Assembly (NCBI GenBank): GCA_020627535.1
Contig: JAHDGU010000006.1
Location: 1 to 64,000 of the forward strand
Length of the DNA stretch: 64,000 bases
Origin: Saprospiraceae bacterium
GTDB taxonomy: Bacteria; Bacteroidota; Bacteroidia; Chitinophagales; Saprospiraceae
Direction: 5' to 3'
A model generated the notes under the pieces. The model saw only the letters and a list, made by a program, of their open reading frames with translations, had not been told where the DNA came from and searched no databases. This document shows positions 25,776 through 35,717 of the stretch, piece by piece; position 1 is the stretch's first letter; the number at the start of each line of letters is the position of its first letter. The translations under genes were made by a program, and so were the position numbers.

Positions 25776-25790
25776 CCAAATGACATTTGG
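25776..25790. promoter_or_regulatory. CCAAAT-GAC-ATTTGG inverted repeat
   Basis: Perfect 6-bp inverted repeat with a 3-base spacer, 72 bases before the start chosen for the following six-gene operon. Possible operator; no partner identified. Confidence 0.3.
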
Positions 25791-25820
25791 ATACTTTTCG
25801 GAATTTTGCGAGAAATTCAA

Positions 25821-25860
25821 CTGCTGACCATCCAAAACAACTGCTGACCATCCAAAACAA
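25821..25860 (+). repeat. Perfect tandem duplication of a 20-base unit
   Basis: Two identical 20-base copies (unit CTGCTGACCATCCAAAACAA) stand side by side immediately before the first gene of the envelope operon. Because 20 is not a multiple of three, the duplication shifts any frame read across it. This supports placing the start codon after it, and it could alter leader spacing or duplicate a binding site. Confidence 0.75.
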
Positions 25861-25861
25861 C

Positions 25862-26800
25862 TTGAAAACAACTTTGACATCTGTAGGCTCCGTGTGGCTA
25901 TACATCACTGGAATCCTGGTGCTAGCATGCTTCTCATGTGAACAGATCACAGAGGAGGTCATCCCAGACAATGATGCCTTCTCTACCAGCAATGTCTCTC
26001 GCATCAAGATCGAGAACTATGTCAATCGACTGTATATCGATATCTTGTCTCGAGAGCCTACCGATCTTGAGCTCCAAGAGGAGGCAGATCGGCTCAATGA
26101 AGCTGAGCTCAGTGAAGCGTCAAGACTGTCCCTCATCGAAAAGCTGATGTCCGACACCACCTTGAGTCCAGGTGAAGGATCGTACAAGCAAGCATACACT
26201 CTCACGCTCTACAATCTAGCCAAGATCAGATGTCTCGAAGGTGCCGCAGATGCTGTCATACAACAGTACCTCGGAATTGCCAAAGGGGCAGCATTGCGCG
26301 ATTCACTCAATGGCAACTGGGAGAGCTACTATGCGAGCCAGATCACGATCAGAAACTATGAGCTCCTCCTCCAATCAAAAAACGAGCTATTTGATGGAAA
26401 TCTGAAGTACCACCAGGTCTATGCCTTCATGATCAATAATGGCGTCTATGACATCATCAATATGAATAGCTTCAATTTCATCCGTGCAAGCTTTGATGAG
26501 CTACTCTTCAGGTTACCTACTTCACAGGAATATGATGCAGCATTCGATATGGTAGAAAAAGAGCTCCCAAGTTTCTTATTTGGTCAAGAAGGCGCTTCAA
26601 AGAATGACTACGTCGACATTATTATCCACAGTGAAGCAATGCTCAGCGGTATGCTAGATTGGAGTTTTCAAGTATTTCTCAATCGCCCCGCTACCGCTCA
26701 AGAAAGAGCCGGTCTACTTCCTGGCTACATAGCAAATCAAGACATCAATCAACTCATAGCACAAATCCTGTCTACTGATGAATATGCCAATTTTCGATAG
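25862..26800 (+). CDS. Lipoprotein with DUF1549/DUF4214-like helical repeats
   Basis: 312 residues from the TTG at 25862 (MKTTLTS...). This start gives a clean signal segment ending LACFSC and lies directly after a 20-base tandem duplication; an in-frame TTG at 25787 would add 25 residues read through that duplication. The mature part is helical, with two segments of the kind RLYIDILSREPTDLELQEEA and SFDELLFRLPTSQEYDAAF. These resemble the 'R-x-LGR-x-PT' helices of DUF1549 and DUF4214 proteins. First gene of an operon of six overlapping or adjacent genes. Function unknown. Confidence 0.65.
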   Translation: MKTTLTSVGSVWLYITGILVLACFSCEQITEEVIPDNDAFSTSNVSRIKIENYVNRLYIDILSREPTDLELQEEADRLNEAELSEASRLSLIEKLMSDTTLSPGEGSYKQAYTLTLYNLAKIRCLEGAADAVIQQYLGIAKGAALRDSLNGNWESYYASQITIRNYELLLQSKNELFDGNLKYHQVYAFMINNGVYDIINMNSFNFIRASFDELLFRLPTSQEYDAAFDMVEKELPSFLFGQEGASKNDYVDIIIHSEAMLSGMLDWSFQVFLNRPATAQERAGLLPGYIANQDINQLIAQILSTDEYANFR

Positions 26801-27278
26801 GCTTAAGGCTCTTTGGTTGCCTTTGATATTGCTAGCATGTCTCTCCTGCCAGCAAGACCTGTATGAAGTCTACGAAATCAATCCTGTGGATGTGCTACCG
26901 GTCAATGCTGAAAAAGATAAGAGCAAGACTGATGCTCAGTATATATCCATATTGTACACCAATCTGTTTCAAGAGCCTATCGGCCCCAATAGAATGCTTG
27001 AAGCACAAGCTGCCATCGCGTCAGTAGGCGACAAACAAATCGCATATGATATGCTCGTGAGTAAATACATGAGAGATGCCCCTGCTTTACCCTCTCGCCA
27101 AGAACTCGATGATGACCCGAGACAATTTATCATAGACACTTATCAGCGATTTTTTACACGACTCCCGACGCAAGCTGAGCTTGAATGGATGGACTCTTTT
27201 TTGACGAGAAATCCGAGCCTCACTCCAGAGCAGATTTATTTTTCTTTTGCCACGAGCTATGAATACTATCACTACTAG
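26778..27278 (+). CDS. Lipoprotein with an R-L-P-T helical motif, paired with the previous gene
   Basis: 166 residues (an internal ATG two codons later is also possible). Lipobox LSC in LACLSCQ (Cys24). The mature part holds ILYTNLFQEPIGP and TYQRFFTRLPTQAELEWMD, related to the motif of the preceding lipoprotein, so the two are probably distant paralogues working as a pair. It overlaps the previous gene by 23 bases and ends three bases before the Tat-signal protein gene. Confidence 0.7.
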   Translation: MNMPIFDRLKALWLPLILLACLSCQQDLYEVYEINPVDVLPVNAEKDKSKTDAQYISILYTNLFQEPIGPNRMLEAQAAIASVGDKQIAYDMLVSKYMRDAPALPSRQELDDDPRQFIIDTYQRFFTRLPTQAELEWMDSFLTRNPSLTPEQIYFSFATSYEYYHY

Positions 27279-27281
27279 ACC

Positions 27282-28637
27282 ATGAAGCGCAGAGATTTTA
27301 TTAAAAAAAGTGCGGGCGCCGGAATATACTCTGCAGCCTTCCCATGGATCGTACCATCCAAAACTGTCTTTGGCTCGATGCCTCCCCCGATGGCAGAGCA
27401 CGTGGTATTCGTTTTATTTGCCGGAGGTGTGAGACAGCAAGAAGCAGTCTTGCAGAGATATCTTGCTGATGGACAAAATGAAGATGTAGAGGGAAATATT
27501 CTCTACAATATGCTCGCAGGTGCACCTCCTGAGACCAAAATAGCCTACGGCATAGACGACCTAGACAATGATATCGTCGGAAGATTTCCCATAGATCGTA
27601 TTCTGGAAACACCACTTGATGTGCAAGGGACGCTTTTTCCAGAAGTCAGATTTTCTCGAGGAGGTGCCGGTCATTTCAATGGCCTCAGTACTGGCGTCAC
27701 AGGAAATTACTATGTATCGGCTGGATTGAGAAATCGCCCTCCATCTCCGACCATCTTTGAATATCTCAGGCGACACGCTGGATTTAAAGCCACCGACACT
27801 TGGTATGTAGGTGCTGGCGTGGGAGGTTCCCGACCCCTACTTAACTACTCTACGCATCCTGACTATGGTCGGCAATATGGTGCCAACTTTCTAGCGCCTA
27901 CCACCACCTTTGGCTCTCCAGGCATGAATCACTTCATGGATTTTAAAAACTATCATGAGACTGATGCCTGGAATGAAATGCTGGAGATGAGGTCATTTCT
28001 GAATCAAAACTTTGCCCAAGGTGCTAGAGAAATTCCTCACTTGTACAACACCAGAGAAGAATCAAACGCCATCAAAACATTTGTGTCTCAGACATTTGAC
28101 AAGGTCCAAAATGGTAGCGTTTTTCTCCCTCCTGTGAATGACAATAATGATTTAAAAACAATAGGCTTCACACTGGAAGTCCTGAATTACTTCAAGCCAA
28201 AATTGACCGTCGTGGACATGACAAATATCGATGTCTGTCATGGCAACTATACCGCGTATCTCAAGAATATGCATCGAGCAGATCACGGCGTGGGATTCCT
28301 GTGGCGGGAAATACAGCGCATACCAGAAATGGCCGGCAATACTATAATGATTGTCATGCCAGAGCATGGTCGTGACTATGATCCAAATCCCATCATGGAT
28401 GATAATCTCTGGTATTCATTTGATCATAGTGGAAATAATGAAAATACTCGCAGAATTTTCAGTCTCATGGTAGGTCCTGGAGTCGATGGAGGTCTCAAAG
28501 TTGGTTCTGAAAACAATCCTGTTGGAGATGCCTCAGATATCGTACCCACCATTGCAGACATCTTTGGTATCAAAGAGACCGTCTATGATGAAGGCCTTCT
28601 CGACCCAAATGCTCGCTCATTATTTGACAGGATATGA
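27282..28637 (+). CDS. DUF1501-like Tat-exported protein (alkaline-phosphatase fold)
   Basis: 451 residues. The N-terminus MKRRDFIKKSAGAGIYSAAF is a twin-arginine signal, implying export of a folded, probably metal-loaded protein. The body resembles DUF1501 / alkaline-phosphatase-superfamily proteins: VVFVLFAGGVRQQEA near the start, DMTNIDVCHGNYTAYLKNMHRADHGVGFLW (about 305-335), IMIVMPEHGRDYDPN (about 345-360) and DHSGNNENTRRIFSLMVGPGV, which supply Asp/His residues of the kind that bind metal. It stands between RLPT-type lipoproteins and a cytochrome-like lipoprotein, the same neighbourhood as planctomycete DUF1501 genes. Substrate unknown. Confidence 0.75.
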   Translation: MKRRDFIKKSAGAGIYSAAFPWIVPSKTVFGSMPPPMAEHVVFVLFAGGVRQQEAVLQRYLADGQNEDVEGNILYNMLAGAPPETKIAYGIDDLDNDIVGRFPIDRILETPLDVQGTLFPEVRFSRGGAGHFNGLSTGVTGNYYVSAGLRNRPPSPTIFEYLRRHAGFKATDTWYVGAGVGGSRPLLNYSTHPDYGRQYGANFLAPTTTFGSPGMNHFMDFKNYHETDAWNEMLEMRSFLNQNFAQGAREIPHLYNTREESNAIKTFVSQTFDKVQNGSVFLPPVNDNNDLKTIGFTLEVLNYFKPKLTVVDMTNIDVCHGNYTAYLKNMHRADHGVGFLWREIQRIPEMAGNTIMIVMPEHGRDYDPNPIMDDNLWYSFDHSGNNENTRRIFSLMVGPGVDGGLKVGSENNPVGDASDIVPTIADIFGIKETVYDEGLLDPNARSLFDRI

Positions 28638-29572
28638 CCAGAACTGTGAGAATAATTCGTGCATATATTGCCCTATTCTTCGTCCTACTAATAGGCTGTG
28701 AAGACCCTCAAGTGGAACCAAATCCATTTGAAAATATTATTTCCAATCAGGATACTGTGAATTTTAGTTTTGATACGGTTGATGCAGCTAGTATTCTAGG
28801 AATATATCAAAACACTTTTGGTCCCACTTGTGCCAATATCGGGTGTCACGACGGCACATTTGAACCTGATTTTCGTACCGTCGAAAGTGCATATAATTCT
28901 CTTCTCTTTCAAGTACCCATAAAAAATGATGGGAGCCTTGTCTATCGTGTCAAACCAGGAAGTCTATCAGAATCTGCCCTGCATAATCGCATCACTGGCT
29001 TGATCTCTCCTGCCATGCCCATAGAGATAGAACCGGACTCTGACTGGCCCACAAATAAGTCTCAGTATATCAAAGACATCGAGAACTGGATCCTTGATGG
29101 TGCTCCCGATATCATGGGAATTCCCGCTGGACAATCAGGCATAGCTCCAAGCATCACAGGTCTATCCATATACGTCAACGACATAAAACAAGTCCGTCCT
29201 GCGAATTATAGACCTATTAAGGTCACAGCGGATTTTGATCAAATAGAGTTCCTCCTCTCTGTCAATGAAGAGCTGCTCACTCAAGACATAAGCAAAATTA
29301 TTCTTGGCATATACAGTGACTCAGACTACACTACACAAGTTTGCTCCAAGGAACTCCTGAGACTCTCTGATTCTCGGTTCGACTATGGACTTTCTGGAAC
29401 AGAGATAGCACATCATTATACTATGAGCTTCAACCTTGATTGCCTCACTGAGGCTACATCGCAGTGGTATGTGAGAGCAGATATCATACTTGTCGATGAT
29501 AGTAGCTACATCGTCCCTCACGATGAAGTTATTTATTACATCAAAGATTACTTGTCTTTTGAATTGCTTTAA
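28634..29572 (+). CDS. Lipoprotein with a CX4CH haem-like motif
   Basis: 312 residues, ATGA overlap with the DUF1501-like gene. Lipobox LIGC (Cys22). The segment CANIGCHDG (Cys66, Cys71, His72) is CX4CH rather than the standard CXXCH. The surrounding sequence (IYQNTFGPTCANIGCHDG...SLVYRVKPGSLSESALHNRI...MPIEIEPDSDWPTNKSQYIKDIENWILDGAPD) matches the layout of c-type cytochrome domains with a distal MP-like Met-Pro. Haem attachment is therefore plausible but not certain. The C-terminal half is beta-rich and unassigned. It may pass electrons to or from the neighbouring exported protein. Confidence 0.7.
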   Translation: MTRTVRIIRAYIALFFVLLIGCEDPQVEPNPFENIISNQDTVNFSFDTVDAASILGIYQNTFGPTCANIGCHDGTFEPDFRTVESAYNSLLFQVPIKNDGSLVYRVKPGSLSESALHNRITGLISPAMPIEIEPDSDWPTNKSQYIKDIENWILDGAPDIMGIPAGQSGIAPSITGLSIYVNDIKQVRPANYRPIKVTADFDQIEFLLSVNEELLTQDISKIILGIYSDSDYTTQVCSKELLRLSDSRFDYGLSGTEIAHHYTMSFNLDCLTEATSQWYVRADIILVDDSSYIVPHDEVIYYIKDYLSFELL

Positions 29573-30008
29573 ATATATCGGTCTTGGTCTCCTGGGTTTG
29601 TGTGCCTTGTCATCTTGTGAGGATGACGTAGATTTTATTCTAGGATCTACTCCCCAAATTACCGGTGTCATCTTATCTCAAGATACCATCAGACAGTTTA
29701 CAGACAATCTCATATTTACCATTGACTATACCGATGGTGATGGTGATCTTGGATTTGACGAGACAGATAGATTTGCATTATTCATCAGAGATGTTCGCCT
29801 ACAAGATTTTGACGGCTTCTATGTGGGTCCCATTGCACCTCCCGAGAGTAATGTCCCAATCAGAGGAAGTCTTGAGGTGCGATTTCCAGAGTTATTTTTA
29901 TTTGGAAGCACGCCTACGGAGGAGACCTGGTTTGAAATAAAACTTGTCGATCGAGCAGGAAATAATAGTGACATATATGTCACAGAAAAAGTACTTCTCG
30001 TCAGATGA
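29523..30008 (+). CDS. Lipoprotein, beta-sandwich-like
   Basis: 161 residues from the ATG at 29523, which overlaps the previous gene by 50 bases. A TTG at 29559 would give a shorter signal segment (M-N-C-F-K-Y-I-G...) and is a real alternative. Lipobox LSSC. The mature part includes TIDYTDGDGDLGFDETD, an Asp-rich calcium-type loop, followed by strands; it resembles single Ig-like or CalX-like beta domains of Bacteroidota surface proteins. It ends in an ATGA overlap with the large CUB protein gene. Confidence 0.65.
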   Translation: MKLFITSKITCLLNCFKYIGLGLLGLCALSSCEDDVDFILGSTPQITGVILSQDTIRQFTDNLIFTIDYTDGDGDLGFDETDRFALFIRDVRLQDFDGFYVGPIAPPESNVPIRGSLEVRFPELFLFGSTPTEETWFEIKLVDRAGNNSDIYVTEKVLLVR

Positions 30009-33000
30009 GGCTTCTCTATTCCATAGTTTTTCTATTGCTGTGCAATTTATGTATAGGCCAAAGCTATGAAATGCAAGACGCGCTGGTACGAGACTGCGAA
30101 GGCACACTGACTGATAGCAATCTGGGACCAGAAGAAGGTCAATATGATCATGATGAAGATTACACATTTACCATATGTGTGGAGGGGGCTGAGCAAATCA
30201 TTCTAGAGTTTGACTTCTTCGCCACTGAAGAGCAATTTGATGTACTCGAGATTTATGATGGATCGGATATATCTGCGACTCTACTCACCAGCCTTACGGG
30301 CGTGATCAATCCTGTCCCGGTTATCGTCGGCTCGTCTGATTGCATTACACTTCGCTTCACGACAGATGATAATATTGTGGCTTCAGGCTGGAGCATGCGC
30401 TGGCGTACAGAACTCGAAGAATTTGCTGAGCCCGAACTTGAAATACTCACAGAACTTTCTTGTCCAAGCAATAATTTGGCTTTTCAACTTTCAGGAAGTA
30501 TTCTTTGTAGCTCGCTTCATCCCAACAACTTCAATCTCATTGGACCAGGAAGTGTTGATATCATTGATATCGTAAGTCCTGACTGTGATTCCGGCTCCGA
30601 CTCAACTGATCAGTTTTTTGTGGTTTTCTCCGATAGCTTGGCGACAAGTGGATCTTATCAATTATTATTTTCTGGTGAGATCATTAATGCTTGTGGCGAC
30701 ACCGCTCCTTTCAATACTTCGGCATCTTTTGATCTTGAAAATTGTCCTCTTGAAATCGAAGCATATGTGCTCCAGCAATCATGCCCAGGAGACTGCGGTG
30801 TGCTGCGAGTAGATATATATGACGACCATCCAGGTCCACATGAGATCACATGGTCACATACAGCTTCGTCAACACAAGAAGTCGAAATCTGCACTGATGT
30901 TCCGACAGAAATCTCTGTGACTGTACAGAATACGGTTACAGATCATTCGAAGACTGCCATTTTTTGGTATTCTCCATTTGAAGAGCCAATGATATTGAAT
31001 CCCCTTGGCTATGACACCATTTGTACTGCAAGAGGTGATCACAATTACATTGTCACTCCTCTTGGTGGTGAGTTTTATTCCAGGATTATCCCTGATGGCG
31101 AAAGGACCAGTGGTAAATATCAATTTTGGAGATGGAACTCAACTTCTGGATATCAAGAAGATATCGTGACGTACATATCAGCAGATGGCTGTGAGGTACA
31201 AGACACATTTGTTGTATCGCCCATATATGCTGGGCTCGATGAAGCGAGCTGTGTTGGAGCTGATTCTTTTTCACTTTTGGCAAGAGCCAATCCAAGAGAT
31301 GGGCTTTGGACAGGTCCACATACGAGCCCTGAAGGAAGATTTGGGCCAGTAGAGTCTGGAGTATTTGACATAAGTCTGACCAATGAGCATGGCTGCCAGG
31401 ACTGGCTCAGGGTGACCGTCATTGATGAAATCATTTTTTCTACTCCTGACACCATTTGTAGTAGCACACAGATACAGCTCAGACAGCACGTCAACGCACT
31501 CGGTGGAGTCTGGTCCGGCCCTGGAGTAGATAATTGGTACACCGGCAGACTCCGAGCCTGGAATGCAACTCCAGATATGTGGCATAGCTACACTTATTCC
31601 GTCAACGGATGCATTGATAGTACCATGATTTATATCATCGGTCTCGATGCTGGGCCTGATCAATCAGTCTGTGGCTCTTCTACAAGTATTCAGCTCCCTT
31701 TTGCTGGAAACTGGTCTGGTCCCGGAGAGTATATATCTGCTGATTCAAGCTACGATATCAGCGGCCTTGAACCTGGAGAATACGACATCACTATAAGCAA
31801 TGAGTTTTGCTCTGACGCCTTCAAGCTGTCAATTCTCGATGTTGGCTTTCAAACAAATGACACCTCACAAGTTTGCCTTAGTGATAAAGACATCCTTCTA
31901 CGAGATATACTAGAATGGTCTCCTAGTGATGCCATTATTTCTGGGCCAGGAATAGTCTTTGCCTATGATCAATATTATTTTGACCCTTCTGAGTTTGGTC
32001 CGGGTTTTTATTCCATTTATTTGGAATCCAGTTCCTGTCAAGACTCTGTGGAAATAGAAATACTACAAGAAGACACTGTTCACCAAGAGTCATTTTGTGA
32101 GCTGAGTGGTATTCAAAAAATAAATTACTCTGTTGAAGGAGCCATATTTTCGGGTCTAGGGATCGTGGATGAGGATGATGGTTTTTTTGATCCATCGATC
32201 ACAGGTGTAGGACGATTTCCCGTGTACGTTTCCTTACAGGATCAATGCGACCAGTTGATTCTCATCGAGGTCACTGGAACGTGGGATGTGTCAATTGCCA
32301 ATCTCCAAGAAGTATATTGTACCAAGGACAGCAACATCATATTGGACATTAGCCCAGCTGATGCAGAGTTCTACATCAACGACGAGTCACAGGATGAGTA
32401 TGTATTGAATACAGCTTTGCTGGGCGAAGGATTCTATCAGCTAACTGTTGCAGGTGGTGCAGGTCTTTGCCGGGATGAAGAGTCATATTTTATTAGTATC
32501 GCCCCTGCGATCGATGGATCTATACAGACACAGTTTGATAGTATTTGCCCTGATGGCTCCACCACAATTTCTGTAACCAGCTCTGGTGGCTTTGGAGATA
32601 TCAGCTCCACCTGGGACAATGATCTTGGCTTTGGCACTAGCCATATTATCAAACCAGATGAAAGCACCACCTATTCTGTCACAATATCTGATGGCTGCTC
32701 TGACGATCTCGTACTATCGCAGTATATCCATGTCCATGATACTATCTCGTATGAAATTCTCCAAGGGCCCGCTGTTTGTCATGACGAATTTTCTTGGGCA
32801 GAAGTTATATTGAACGATCCCATAGACTATGAGATCTTCTGGTTTGAAGAAGAAGAGTGGAATGATCTAAGCATAGAAGCCAATCCAGGAGACTACCACG
32901 CAGAGTTGACCAATCTATCCACCACTTGCTCCCAAAACATTGAAGTCCAAGTCCCAGGTTCACCTCAGCTCCACGCCGACTTCCTGATTGTGCCCAATCA

Positions 33001-33508
33001 AGAGTGTATTGATCTCAGTAATAATCAGATTCAACTCATCGACTTGTCATTTGGTGCTACAAGTGGTATCGTCAATTATGGATTTGGTCAGGAGGATACG
33101 GATACTTTGTTCCTAGAAGACCTGGAACATAGCTATTTTGATATTGGTGAATACGATATCACGATGACGGTCTTCAATGACCTCGGCTGCAAGGATAGTA
33201 CAAGCATGAATATCTGTGTGGAAAACAGGGTGAAGGTTTACTTACCCAATGTTTTTTCTCCCAATGGCGATGACATGAATGATCAGTATGAGGTCTTCTC
33301 CATCGGCCTAGAGCAGCTTCAGCTGCGGATATACAATCGCTGGGGTCAGCTTGTTTTTGAGTCTGTCGGCGACGATCTCTCGCCTTGGGATGGGACATTC
33401 AAAGGTCTTGAGATGGAGGCATCCGTACTCTCTGTAGTGTTTAGCGGTATCAATCGAGAGACCGGTGCACTGGTCACTGAGTCGACAGATTTGACACTTC
33501 TACGCTAG
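30005..33508 (+). CDS. Large secreted CUB-domain protein with gliding-motility-type (T9SS type B) C-terminus
   Basis: 1167 residues. Signal peptide about 1-18 (ending CIGQ). A CUB domain (about 28-133: YTFTICVEGAEQIILEFDFFATEEQFDVLEIYDGSD...ITLRFTTDDNIVASGWSMRW) follows. A long body contains several repeats with GGxWSGPG-type turns (LGGVWSGPGV, GNWSGPGEY, ISGPGIVF, FSGLGIV) and about 30 Cys, so it is probably disulfide-rich. A PKD-like stretch (about 995-1070) precedes the C-terminal type B sorting domain (VYLPNVFSPNGDDMNDQ...LRIYNRWGQLVFE). Surface or secreted adhesin-like protein and the last gene of the operon. Confidence 0.88.
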   Translation: MRLLYSIVFLLLCNLCIGQSYEMQDALVRDCEGTLTDSNLGPEEGQYDHDEDYTFTICVEGAEQIILEFDFFATEEQFDVLEIYDGSDISATLLTSLTGVINPVPVIVGSSDCITLRFTTDDNIVASGWSMRWRTELEEFAEPELEILTELSCPSNNLAFQLSGSILCSSLHPNNFNLIGPGSVDIIDIVSPDCDSGSDSTDQFFVVFSDSLATSGSYQLLFSGEIINACGDTAPFNTSASFDLENCPLEIEAYVLQQSCPGDCGVLRVDIYDDHPGPHEITWSHTASSTQEVEICTDVPTEISVTVQNTVTDHSKTAIFWYSPFEEPMILNPLGYDTICTARGDHNYIVTPLGGEFYSRIIPDGERTSGKYQFWRWNSTSGYQEDIVTYISADGCEVQDTFVVSPIYAGLDEASCVGADSFSLLARANPRDGLWTGPHTSPEGRFGPVESGVFDISLTNEHGCQDWLRVTVIDEIIFSTPDTICSSTQIQLRQHVNALGGVWSGPGVDNWYTGRLRAWNATPDMWHSYTYSVNGCIDSTMIYIIGLDAGPDQSVCGSSTSIQLPFAGNWSGPGEYISADSSYDISGLEPGEYDITISNEFCSDAFKLSILDVGFQTNDTSQVCLSDKDILLRDILEWSPSDAIISGPGIVFAYDQYYFDPSEFGPGFYSIYLESSSCQDSVEIEILQEDTVHQESFCELSGIQKINYSVEGAIFSGLGIVDEDDGFFDPSITGVGRFPVYVSLQDQCDQLILIEVTGTWDVSIANLQEVYCTKDSNIILDISPADAEFYINDESQDEYVLNTALLGEGFYQLTVAGGAGLCRDEESYFISIAPAIDGSIQTQFDSICPDGSTTISVTSSGGFGDISSTWDNDLGFGTSHIIKPDESTTYSVTISDGCSDDLVLSQYIHVHDTISYEILQGPAVCHDEFSWAEVILNDPIDYEIFWFEEEEWNDLSIEANPGDYHAELTNLSTTCSQNIEVQVPGSPQLHADFLIVPNQECIDLSNNQIQLIDLSFGATSGIVNYGFGQEDTDTLFLEDLEHSYFDIGEYDITMTVFNDLGCKDSTSMNICVENRVKVYLPNVFSPNGDDMNDQYEVFSIGLEQLQLRIYNRWGQLVFESVGDDLSPWDGTFKGLEMEASVLSVVFSGINRETGALVTESTDLTLLR

Positions 33509-33633
33509 AGATTTCTCCCCTCTTTGTTAGAGTTTTCTTGCAATCTGTGCCCAAGTGTTAAGATTTCCTGAGCGCTGCAACCCTTCACATTTCATAGCCG
33601 TCATTGAAGCAAAATGACTTAAAACCCAATACT

Positions 33634-34293
33634 ATGAAAAACATCATCTACAGCCTTTTTGCCCTCTTTCTCGCCCTTGGATTTAGCTCATGTGGTAATG
33701 ACGACATCTGCGTCCGAGGTAACAATCGCATCGATACTGAGGTGCGAAATATTGAGTCTTTCATAGGCGTCTGCAAAGTCAACAGCATCGACGTCGAGGT
33801 CTACAGTGCTCCATACTTTGAAGTAGTTGTTACTGCGGATGACAATATCATCCCAAGCATCTTGACTTATGTCTCGCGAGATATTCTCCATGTCGAGTTA
33901 GACGGAGGATGCTTCCGGAGCTTTGATGCACGTGTAGAGATCTACATGCCAGACATCGCGGTGCTTGAATCACGTGGGAGTGGTAACATGCTCGTGGATG
34001 GTTTCTTCAATATCCCAGACCTTACACTCGATCTGAGTGGTAGTGGTGACATCAGACTGATTGGCTCCACAGAGGAGTTTATTATTGATAAGTCTGGTAG
34101 CGGAGATGTAAGAGCTTTTGACATGAGAGCCGAAGCCGTGATCCTAGACAAGTCCGGCAGTGGTGATCTTGAGGTGTTTGCCTCTGATGAGATTCTCGGT
34201 GAGATGTCTGGGAGTGGAGATTTACTCTATCGAGGATTTCCGATCATCAACCTCAATAAGTCTGGCAGCGGAGACATCATAGATGCCAACTAA
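33634..34293 (+). CDS. Lipoprotein with GIN / DUF2807 beta-helix domain
   Basis: 219 residues from the ATG at 33634 (an ATG-less 10-codon extension upstream lacks a signal). Lipobox FSSC. The mature part is the putative auto-transporter adhesin head GIN domain (DUF2807): strands with the recurring motif SGSGD (LSGSGDIRL, KSGSGDVRA, KSGSGDLEV, MSGSGDLLY, KSGSGDIID), one per turn, as in a right-handed beta-helix. Role unknown; such proteins are widespread in Bacteroidota envelopes. It converges with the di-haem cytochrome gene, with 20 bases between. Confidence 0.88.
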   Translation: MKNIIYSLFALFLALGFSSCGNDDICVRGNNRIDTEVRNIESFIGVCKVNSIDVEVYSAPYFEVVVTADDNIIPSILTYVSRDILHVELDGGCFRSFDARVEIYMPDIAVLESRGSGNMLVDGFFNIPDLTLDLSGSGDIRLIGSTEEFIIDKSGSGDVRAFDMRAEAVILDKSGSGDLEVFASDEILGEMSGSGDLLYRGFPIINLNKSGSGDIIDAN

Positions 34294-34313: not shown

Positions 34314-35717
34314 TCAAAGCGTCTTGAGATATTCGATCAAGTCATCACGCTCTGCATCGCTGAGAACATCTCCATAGATGTGGCCCTGATTTCCATAGCC
34401 TTCGATCCTCGTGTCATATACGGCTGAGCTCGTGGCTTCTGTCTCGACCTCGTACGGCCAACCCACCTTGACATGATCATAGCTACTATCATCATGATCT
34501 CTGCTCCATAGCTCAGGCCTACCTGGGCTATGGAGTAAGTCATCAAGGGTAGGTATAGATCCATTGTGCAAGTAAGGGGCTGTCGCCCAAATGCCGTCTA
34601 GTGGTGGTGCTATATATCCTGCTGGCGCCGCCAGATACTCATCAAATAAGCTACCCTCTCCGATCCAACTCTCCTTCACCCAATTGATGAAATCCGTTTG
34701 TTGCAGAAAGTACTGTGCATAGTGGGGATCCGTGCCAATGGTCTCAAGATCAATGAGCAAGTTGGGGTACTCGTCGGTATCATAATTTCCATGACAAGAA
34801 GCGCAGTGTCGCTCAAATAGTGCCTTACCCCGATTAGCTTTCTCGCTATCAATGTCTCCACGATAGGTAGGGGCGTCAAGCTGCATGATCCAAGCAAGTA
34901 CATCGTCAAAGTTGTCATGGATGCGCTCTGCTTCCTCTTGATCATCAATCGCCACCACCATCACTTGCTGGAGCAACTTGGTATAGTCTCCTCTTCCCAT
35001 ACCAGTGTAGTAGAGTCCATTTTTCTTTTTTACATGCCACAGTGGTGGCACATCTGAGCTGTATCCACCGCTTGGTACTTCAAAGTATGGCTCCTCGAGC
35101 CAACTCATATCAGATGGGTCACGATGAGCCACCGCTGCTTCCTCGATCCTAAACGCCGGATTGACTCCACGCATAGGGCTGATAGAGTGCGGAGCCACGG
35201 CCTTGGTACCTAGGTAAAATGGCTCAAATGATCTGTACTCTGGACTGTCTTCACCATAGACAGTGATCACCGTCGTACGTAGTAGATCTGTAATAAGGCC
35301 TTGATCAGTGGTAAAGTCACTATTTGCTCCTCCGAGACCCAAGATATACTCACCGTCGATCTCTCCTGAGTGACAGCCAAAACAGGTCAGACCACCAACG
35401 AGCTTGACGCCTGACTCATCTGTAAATGCATTCCATCCATAGGGAATCGGCTCATTATCTCCAGTGCGATTGAGTAGATTATCTCCCGGATTAAACACAC
35501 TGGTATACAGATCATATGGAATCCCGCTACCGATGTAGCCACCTGTGGTCAGATATGTCCATCCTTCATCAGAGCTTCCTGACAGGTCTTGATCCGCGCT
35601 AGGGATTTGAGTAGCGCCAGCGGGTAGCGGATCCGGCATGGGTGTAGGCTCAGGATCATTGTTACAAGACATGATCGCGTATGCACTAACCAAGATGATT
35701 AACACTCTTTTTATCAT
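34314..35717 (-). CDS. Di-haem c-type cytochrome lipoprotein (cytochrome c peroxidase-like)
   Basis: 467 residues. Lipoprotein signal ending IMSC (Cys18) and a Pro-rich spacer. There are two haem sites: TCFGCHSG (Cys112, Cys115, His116) and HCASCHGN (Cys305, Cys308, His309). The C-terminus GIWATAPYLHNGSIPTLDDLL is the typical closing motif of MauG/CcpA-type di-haem proteins. This suggests a periplasm-side redox enzyme (peroxidase or oxygenase-like), exact substrate unknown. Divergent from the histidine kinase gene with 79 bases between, which may make it a target of that system. Confidence 0.85.
   Translation of the reverse strand: MIKRVLIILVSAYAIMSCNNDPEPTPMPDPLPAGATQIPSADQDLSGSSDEGWTYLTTGGYIGSGIPYDLYTSVFNPGDNLLNRTGDNEPIPYGWNAFTDESGVKLVGGLTCFGCHSGEIDGEYILGLGGANSDFTTDQGLITDLLRTTVITVYGEDSPEYRSFEPFYLGTKAVAPHSISPMRGVNPAFRIEEAAVAHRDPSDMSWLEEPYFEVPSGGYSSDVPPLWHVKKKNGLYYTGMGRGDYTKLLQQVMVVAIDDQEEAERIHDNFDDVLAWIMQLDAPTYRGDIDSEKANRGKALFERHCASCHGNYDTDEYPNLLIDLETIGTDPHYAQYFLQQTDFINWVKESWIGEGSLFDEYLAAPAGYIAPPLDGIWATAPYLHNGSIPTLDDLLHSPGRPELWSRDHDDSSYDHVKVGWPYEVETEATSSAVYDTRIEGYGNQGHIYGDVLSDAERDDLIEYLKTL
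34577..34593 (-). repeat. Hairpin word, GACA-loop variant, in coding sequence
   Basis: CATTTGGGCGACAGCCC on the minus strand, coding for I-W-A-T-A-P of the cytochrome. This peptide is conserved in the protein family, so the match may be driven by protein sequence. It is identical to the copy at 4946-4962. Confidence 0.35.

Follow-up and report, generated by a model that had tools for sequence, protein, structure and literature searches.

Six adjoining envelope genes in a Saprospiraceae genome form a block that we consider almost certain to be a real conserved unit. The block occupies positions 25862 to 33508 of the window, by which we mean the whole 64,000-nucleotide stretch of DNA that was analysed. 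Its first five genes, A to E, are inherited and retained as a set, to which a sixth gene, F, is added in one of two subtypes (subtype I). The genome carrying the window measures 4.09 Mb and has a type 9 secretion system (T9SS), and its named relatives are Saprospiraceae. A literature search, with most subscription papers outside its reach, found no account of the set in Bacteroidota.

Results

Gene content of the block

All six open reading frames lie on the forward strand and either overlap or stand a few bases apart, as the preliminary description of this DNA had it. Gene A (25862..26800, +) encodes an all-helical lipoprotein resembling DUF4214 proteins and phycobilisome linkers, with weak similarity to DUF1549/DUF1553, and gene B (26778..27278, +), which overlaps it by 23 bp, encodes a smaller helical lipoprotein related to A, whose family matches DUF4214. 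After a gap of 3 bp comes gene C (27282..28637, +) for a Tat-exported, DUF1501-like protein of the alkaline phosphatase (AP) superfamily, recognized by its RRxFIKK signal, its AF2 model and its conserved residues. Gene D (28634..29572, +) overlaps C by 4 bp and encodes a lipoprotein in which a PSCyt1-like monohaem cytochrome c domain, predicted from CX4CH and hhalign, precedes a C-terminal domain. It overlaps in turn with gene E (29523..30008, +), encoding a small lipoprotein whose DGDGDLG stretch is conserved in 21 aligned loci. Gene F (30005..33508, +), overlapping E by 4 bp, encodes a surface protein of about 1167 aa with CUB, WSGPG-type repeats, PKD and a T9SS type B sorting domain (Pfam, TIGR04131). 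The individual features singled out earlier are likewise present: C begins with MKRRDFIKK, the CX4CH motif of D reads CANIGCH, and F combines CUB with the T9SS type B domain. Lipobox-type signals precede the cysteine in A, B, D and E. TTG codons at 25787 and 25862 are alternative starts for gene A, and E probably starts at the ATG at 29523, its listed reading frame beginning at TTG 29490.

The surroundings of the block hold several features of their own. Directly before the probable start codon of A, positions 25820-25859 consist of a perfect 20-bp tandem duplication (ACTGCTGACCATCCAAAACA twice). Directly after F lies a gene for a DUF2807 head-GIN lipoprotein (33604-34293, +), which was considered as a seventh member and rejected, as it has no homologue beside the block in relatives. 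Just downstream, outside the conserved block, positions 34314-35717 (-) encode a lipoprotein matching RoxA-like / di-haem cytochrome c peroxidase (NF040606, 152.6 bits against a cut-off of 150).

Conservation, subtypes and distribution

The block is widespread yet patchy. GTDB genomes contain 317 loci coding for a protein related to C, and the carriers of the block, hundreds of Bacteroidota genomes, are mostly uncultured; in an even draw across the phylum C is present in only 3 of 396 genomes. The best 80 of the 317 loci are labelled as Bacteroidota lineages except two, one of these labelled Sphingomonadales. The gene order proves to be conserved in relatives, A-B-C-D-E-F being complete in 68 of these best 80 loci; most of the incomplete ones run into the edge of their contig, and C stands alone in four.

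Homologues of C in 61 related genomes fall into two groups, 50-72% and 37-45% identical. The closer group defines subtype I (ABCDEF) and the other subtype II (ABCDE), F occurring in subtype I only, and the order A-B-C-D-E is found in nearly all loci inspected (3 to 19 kb each). Both subtypes are present together in four genomes (G030, G040, G047 and G049). Two subtype II loci carry further genes: an aminotransferase-like gene stands between C and D in one operon (L046:10232-11332), and at L048:3612-7517, next to another block, two tandem proteins of ~600-700 aa, DUF4331-like by eye, have the motif SSHREAPxIxxDPLADNTDLY in common.

A recount of the flanks found no gene family recurring beside the block beyond close relatives, and no conserved glycan-related gene among the flanking families. 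The block is therefore a self-contained unit. A larger conserved neighbourhood was rejected, since flanking genes are not kept while the A-F order recurs.

Inheritance and joint retention

The split between subtypes I and II is exact in all five single-gene trees (A-E), with support of 0.97-1.0, and the recurrence of the same split in every tree indicates that the block diverged as a whole. Its members also occur together. C is found in 22 of the 61 related genomes, of which 21 have A and 21 a strong D, the two exceptions being G042, which lacks A, and G028, which lacks D, in both of which a contig end truncates the locus; every strong match to A or D among the 61 genomes comes from a genome that also has C. 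The co-occurrence of A, C and D has a Fisher p of 1.8e-15 over the 61 genomes, with kinship between genomes uncorrected. A weak D-like match stands alone in G019 and G024 (E 6e-11 and 9e-14).

The strongest evidence for a unit comes from what amounts to a natural experiment. In genome G016 the block is scattered, each of A, B, C, D and E having a contig to itself (C155, C196, C236, C231 and C240, respectively), yet none of the five has been lost, which suggests that the parts need each other. In G052 the block is divided between two contigs, one with A, B and C and the other with D and E.

Linker-like lipoproteins A and B

When the window's own A to E were scanned one by one against Pfam and NCBIfam, almost nothing matched, and family-wide scans were needed. 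Family A matches DUF4214 in 18/24 sequences (best 2.8e-8), PBS_linker in 9/24 (best 1.6e-7), DUF1549 in 8/24 (best 3.5e-4) and DUF1553 in 5/24 (best 2.3e-3); family B matches DUF4214 in 20/24 (best 2.3e-6) and DUF1553 in 3/24 (0.072). Against DUF4214 the window's own A and B score 15.9 and 18.2 bits, under the cut-off of 23.2, with relatives reaching 2.8e-8; against DUF1549/DUF1553 they have no match, and those of their relatives are weak and below the Pfam cut-off. The likeness of A to DUF1549 is confined to the first motif (ENYVNRLYIDLLGREPLDxE against LIRRLSFDLTGLPPTPEE). A and B match each other in hhalign at 91-94%, the signal peptide making up part of the alignment. AF2 models A entirely from helices (pLDDT 91.3), and phycobilisome linker domains account for most of the model's high-probability matches in the PDB (3pru_D, TM 0.67 by target length), none of the PDB matches having E <= 0.001. 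A DUF1800-like identity was rejected for both proteins (hhalign 0.1-2.6%).

By their profiles, A and B read as linker-like helical lipoproteins nearer to DUF4214 than to DUF1549. The DUF1549 likeness first proposed for the operon survives in the weak DUF1549/DUF1553 matches of the family, but DUF4214 and PBS linkers score better.

The AP-superfamily protein C

The AF2 model of C (pLDDT 81, pTM 0.82) has 446 PDB matches with E <= 0.001; among the matches listed are sulfatases, phosphatases and phosphodiesterases, with sulfatases/phosphatases at probability 1.00 and E 5e-9. As modelled, C has an alkaline phosphatase fold, and it carries a Tat signal. Invariant in 104/104 C sequences are G48, G49, R51, H131, G141, D317, H320, G363, R364, D381 and H382, and E361 is kept in 102/104; position 362 is His in 71 sequences and Cys in 33, both of which are able to bind metal. 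Judged by motif spacing (x8-TG), the invariant H131, which starts helix 131-140 of the model, occupies the position of the sulfatase Cys/Ser, and C has no Ser/Thr/Cys nucleophile there. The identification of C as a sulfatase was rejected on the absence of the nucleophile motif, and C may be a pseudoenzyme.

Three signatures of DUF1501 recur in C, namely GG after strand 1 (104/104), His at the nucleophile position (104/104) and E-x-G-R (102/104). Planctomycete-type DUF1501 proteins have H-x8-TG in 10/10 and EFGRT in 10/10, and the sulfatase controls have neither (0/4), the motifs common to C and DUF1501 having been defined after inspection of the sequences. In hhalign the profile of C reaches 33-46% against local DUF1501 sets and 52% against sulfatases, and the two are not separated. 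No Pfam match to DUF1501 (PF07394) was found for C, and only one among 24 relatives (E 0.069); a DUF1501 search of its own genome listed 7 genes, C not among them. Plain membership in DUF1501 was rejected on the Pfam result, with hhalign no better than to sulfatases. We take C to resemble DUF1501 without belonging to it, because the motifs separate DUF1501 from sulfatases and the profile scores do not. The original designation of C as a Tat-exported DUF1501-like protein thus stands in fold, Tat signal and signature residues, but not in Pfam membership.

Genes D, E and F

D aligns with PSCyt1 over the whole domain (hhalign 96.3%, E 2e-9), and the two have the landmarks PG..S.L..R, MP and WI..GAP in common; Pfam matches to PSCyt1 in the D family are sub-threshold only (2/21). 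By profile the homology of D to PSCyt1 is clear, and the likening of D to a planctomycete cytochrome was well founded. The CX4CH motif, which D has in place of CXXCH, is present in 96/96 D sequences and the downstream MP in 95/96, and D is a putative haem-c lipoprotein with a predicted covalent haem at CX4CH. The cytochrome domain occurs alone, its C-terminal domain lost, at L034:8771-9262 and on contig C231 of G016 (L197:9309-9788). For the conserved lipoprotein E no Pfam family was found.

The F protein of the window matches CUB near its N-terminus (1.5e-9) and CHU_C (6.8e-13) in Pfam as well as TIGR04131 (Bac_Flav_CTERM; 3.2e-10, 40 bits, cut-off 35), and its relatives retain CUB, WSGPG-type repeats, PKD and the sorting domain. 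F shows both marks of a T9SS type B cargo, having a C-terminal sorting domain and SprA encoded in the same genome (SprA_N 5.8e-144). TatC and cytochrome c assembly proteins are encoded there too. The idea of a complete surface system exported through the Tat, lipoprotein and T9SS routes holds for subtype I, but subtype II is without a T9SS protein.

Discussion

What could such a unit do? We regard it as a reasonable possibility, somewhat short of probable, that the block is one functional unit making an envelope protein complex with redox or hydrolase activity on a surface substrate. C would be exported folded by Tat, its signal being cleaved after ..LFA, and A, B, D and E would be lipid-anchored in the outer membrane. 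By analogy with phycobilisome linkers, A and B might act as scaffolds that hold C beside the haem protein D. C would bind metal through the superfamily ligands D317, H320, H382, E361 and H/C362, and would bear H131 where sulfatases and phosphodiesterases have Cys/Ser/Thr; with a histidine at the nucleophile position it is probably off the classical covalent route of ester hydrolysis. Together with the haem of D, it could carry out a redox-assisted reaction whose substrate lies in the envelope or outside the cell, a (poly)saccharide being the likeliest candidate, and in subtype I the T9SS would bring F to the surface as a capture or adhesion module. The more specific proposal, that of an unnamed envelope system in which an AP-fold protein with His at the nucleophile position and a haem-c lipoprotein are carried on linker-like scaffolds, is offered tentatively.

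The products of genes A to E might instead be dedicated to assembling or anchoring the giant T9SS protein F, which they would modify, fold or attach at the outer membrane. Several AP-superfamily proteins decorate surface polymers, and F is always the last gene in subtype I, with a near-constant length (median 1166 in 62 relatives); A to E, however, exist without F in subtype II, and the subtypes coexist in four genomes, so that we find this unlikely. Nor do we expect the block to form a non-catalytic adhesive or structural layer, composed of linker-like A and B, a dead AP-fold protein C, the lipoprotein E, the adhesin F and a degenerate cytochrome D. DUF4214 and PBS linkers are structural, and His replaces the nucleophile in 104/104 C sequences, as such a layer would allow, but D317, H320, D381-H382 and E361 of C and the haem Cys, His and Met of D are (near-)invariant, which is unusual for dead proteins.

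A cell-surface electron-transfer chain leading from the haem lipoprotein D to an extracellular acceptor, with the other parts structural, seems a little less likely still. The invariant haem motif (96/96) agrees with it, as does FoxE, the only PDB match of profile A2 and a weak one (E 0.019), whereas only a single haem can be seen in each complex, accompanied by neither a porin nor a multihaem partner, and the strictly conserved metal-ligand residues of C suggest more than scaffolding. The idea that unrelated envelope genes came to lie together by chance, for which the unrelated and unconserved neighbours (DUF2807, RoxA-like cytochrome) might speak, is already contradicted by the conserved gene order, by the co-occurrence of the genes and by their survival as a set where the block has been dispersed, and its probability is negligible.

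If the reading of the block as a redox or hydrolytic envelope complex is true, undescribed chemistry of one of these kinds would be common to the block and the planctomycete PSCyt/DUF1501 sets, whose genes are present dozens of times in a single genome and have been unexplained in function for years. Here each of the same ingredients has a gene to itself and the core is strictly conserved, so that single-gene knock-outs, purification of the complex and active-site tests are feasible, and the places to look are the haem of D and, in C, His131.

Comparison with known systems

In predicted fold and in motif A and B resemble phycobilisome linker / DUF4214 proteins, but they are lipoproteins of non-photosynthetic Bacteroidota, without phycobiliproteins. 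C has in common with sulfatases and the wider AP superfamily its predicted fold and several metal ligands; unlike sulfatases, it is without the Cys/Ser formylglycine motif and has His at the nucleophile and Gly in place of the first metal Asp.

DUF1501 proteins are also found paired with DUF1800 and exported by Tat, and in this pair a helical secreted protein stands beside a Tat AP-superfamily protein, as it does here (PMC5122149). In Saprospiraceae the pair is often accompanied by a small third protein, apparently T9SS-sorted (L097, L099-L104). DUF1501 genes are present elsewhere in the window's genome, and two or more of them belong to DUF1800-DUF1501 sets: L097 (G000:C16:8000-23000) holds two apparent tandem sets of DUF1800, DUF1501 and a small third protein that looks T9SS-sorted (DUF1800 and T9SS assigned by eye), with similar triplets at L099-L104. 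The arrangement is a parallel one, in which a helical protein is joined by a Tat AP-fold protein and a partner that is secreted. A and B, in contrast, have no profile similarity to DUF1800, and the pair is without a haem protein.

In planctomycete sets PSCyt1, DUF1549 and DUF1553 are fused and DUF1501 adjoins, with function unexplained (PMC5615132); carbohydrate or redox roles have been suggested for PSCyt proteins (PMC5615132; PMC2754498), and R. baltica has 41 of each PSCyt/DUF1549/DUF1553/DUF1501 domain (PMC2754498). The block contains the same ingredients as the PSCyt1-DUF1549(PSCyt2)-DUF1553(PSD1) + DUF1501 arrangement, the PSCyt1-type haem domain corresponding to D and the DUF1549/1553-like helices to A and B, while DUF1501 and C are both Tat-exported AP-superfamily proteins with GG, H-x9-G and ExGR signatures. 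It differs in having one domain per gene, with A, B and D separate in all loci, in the higher scores of A/B to DUF4214, and in the additional genes E and F. Profile searches against the families first named upheld a PSCyt1-like D and gave matches to DUF4214 among relatives of A and B, but left DUF1501 and DUF1549 below cut-off; with C and A/B under the Pfam cut-offs, no DUF1553 above its own and no fusion, the block is, by its sequence, formally outside the planctomycete set. Other members of this bacterial family carry canonical PSCyt1-DUF1549-DUF1553 + DUF1501 pairs (L088-L096), and the block is thus a separate distant variant; the window's own genome has no PSCyt2 match and no planctomycete-type set. 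The suggested planctomycete likeness is therefore sound for the ingredients, but not for formal domain membership or for the notion of 'the Bacteroidota version'. By analogy, the likeliest parallel in action would be the planctomycete PSCyt1-DUF1549-DUF1553 + DUF1501 pair, and in its sequences the block resembles a remote relation of the planctomycete haem-protein sets that has been divided into separate genes.
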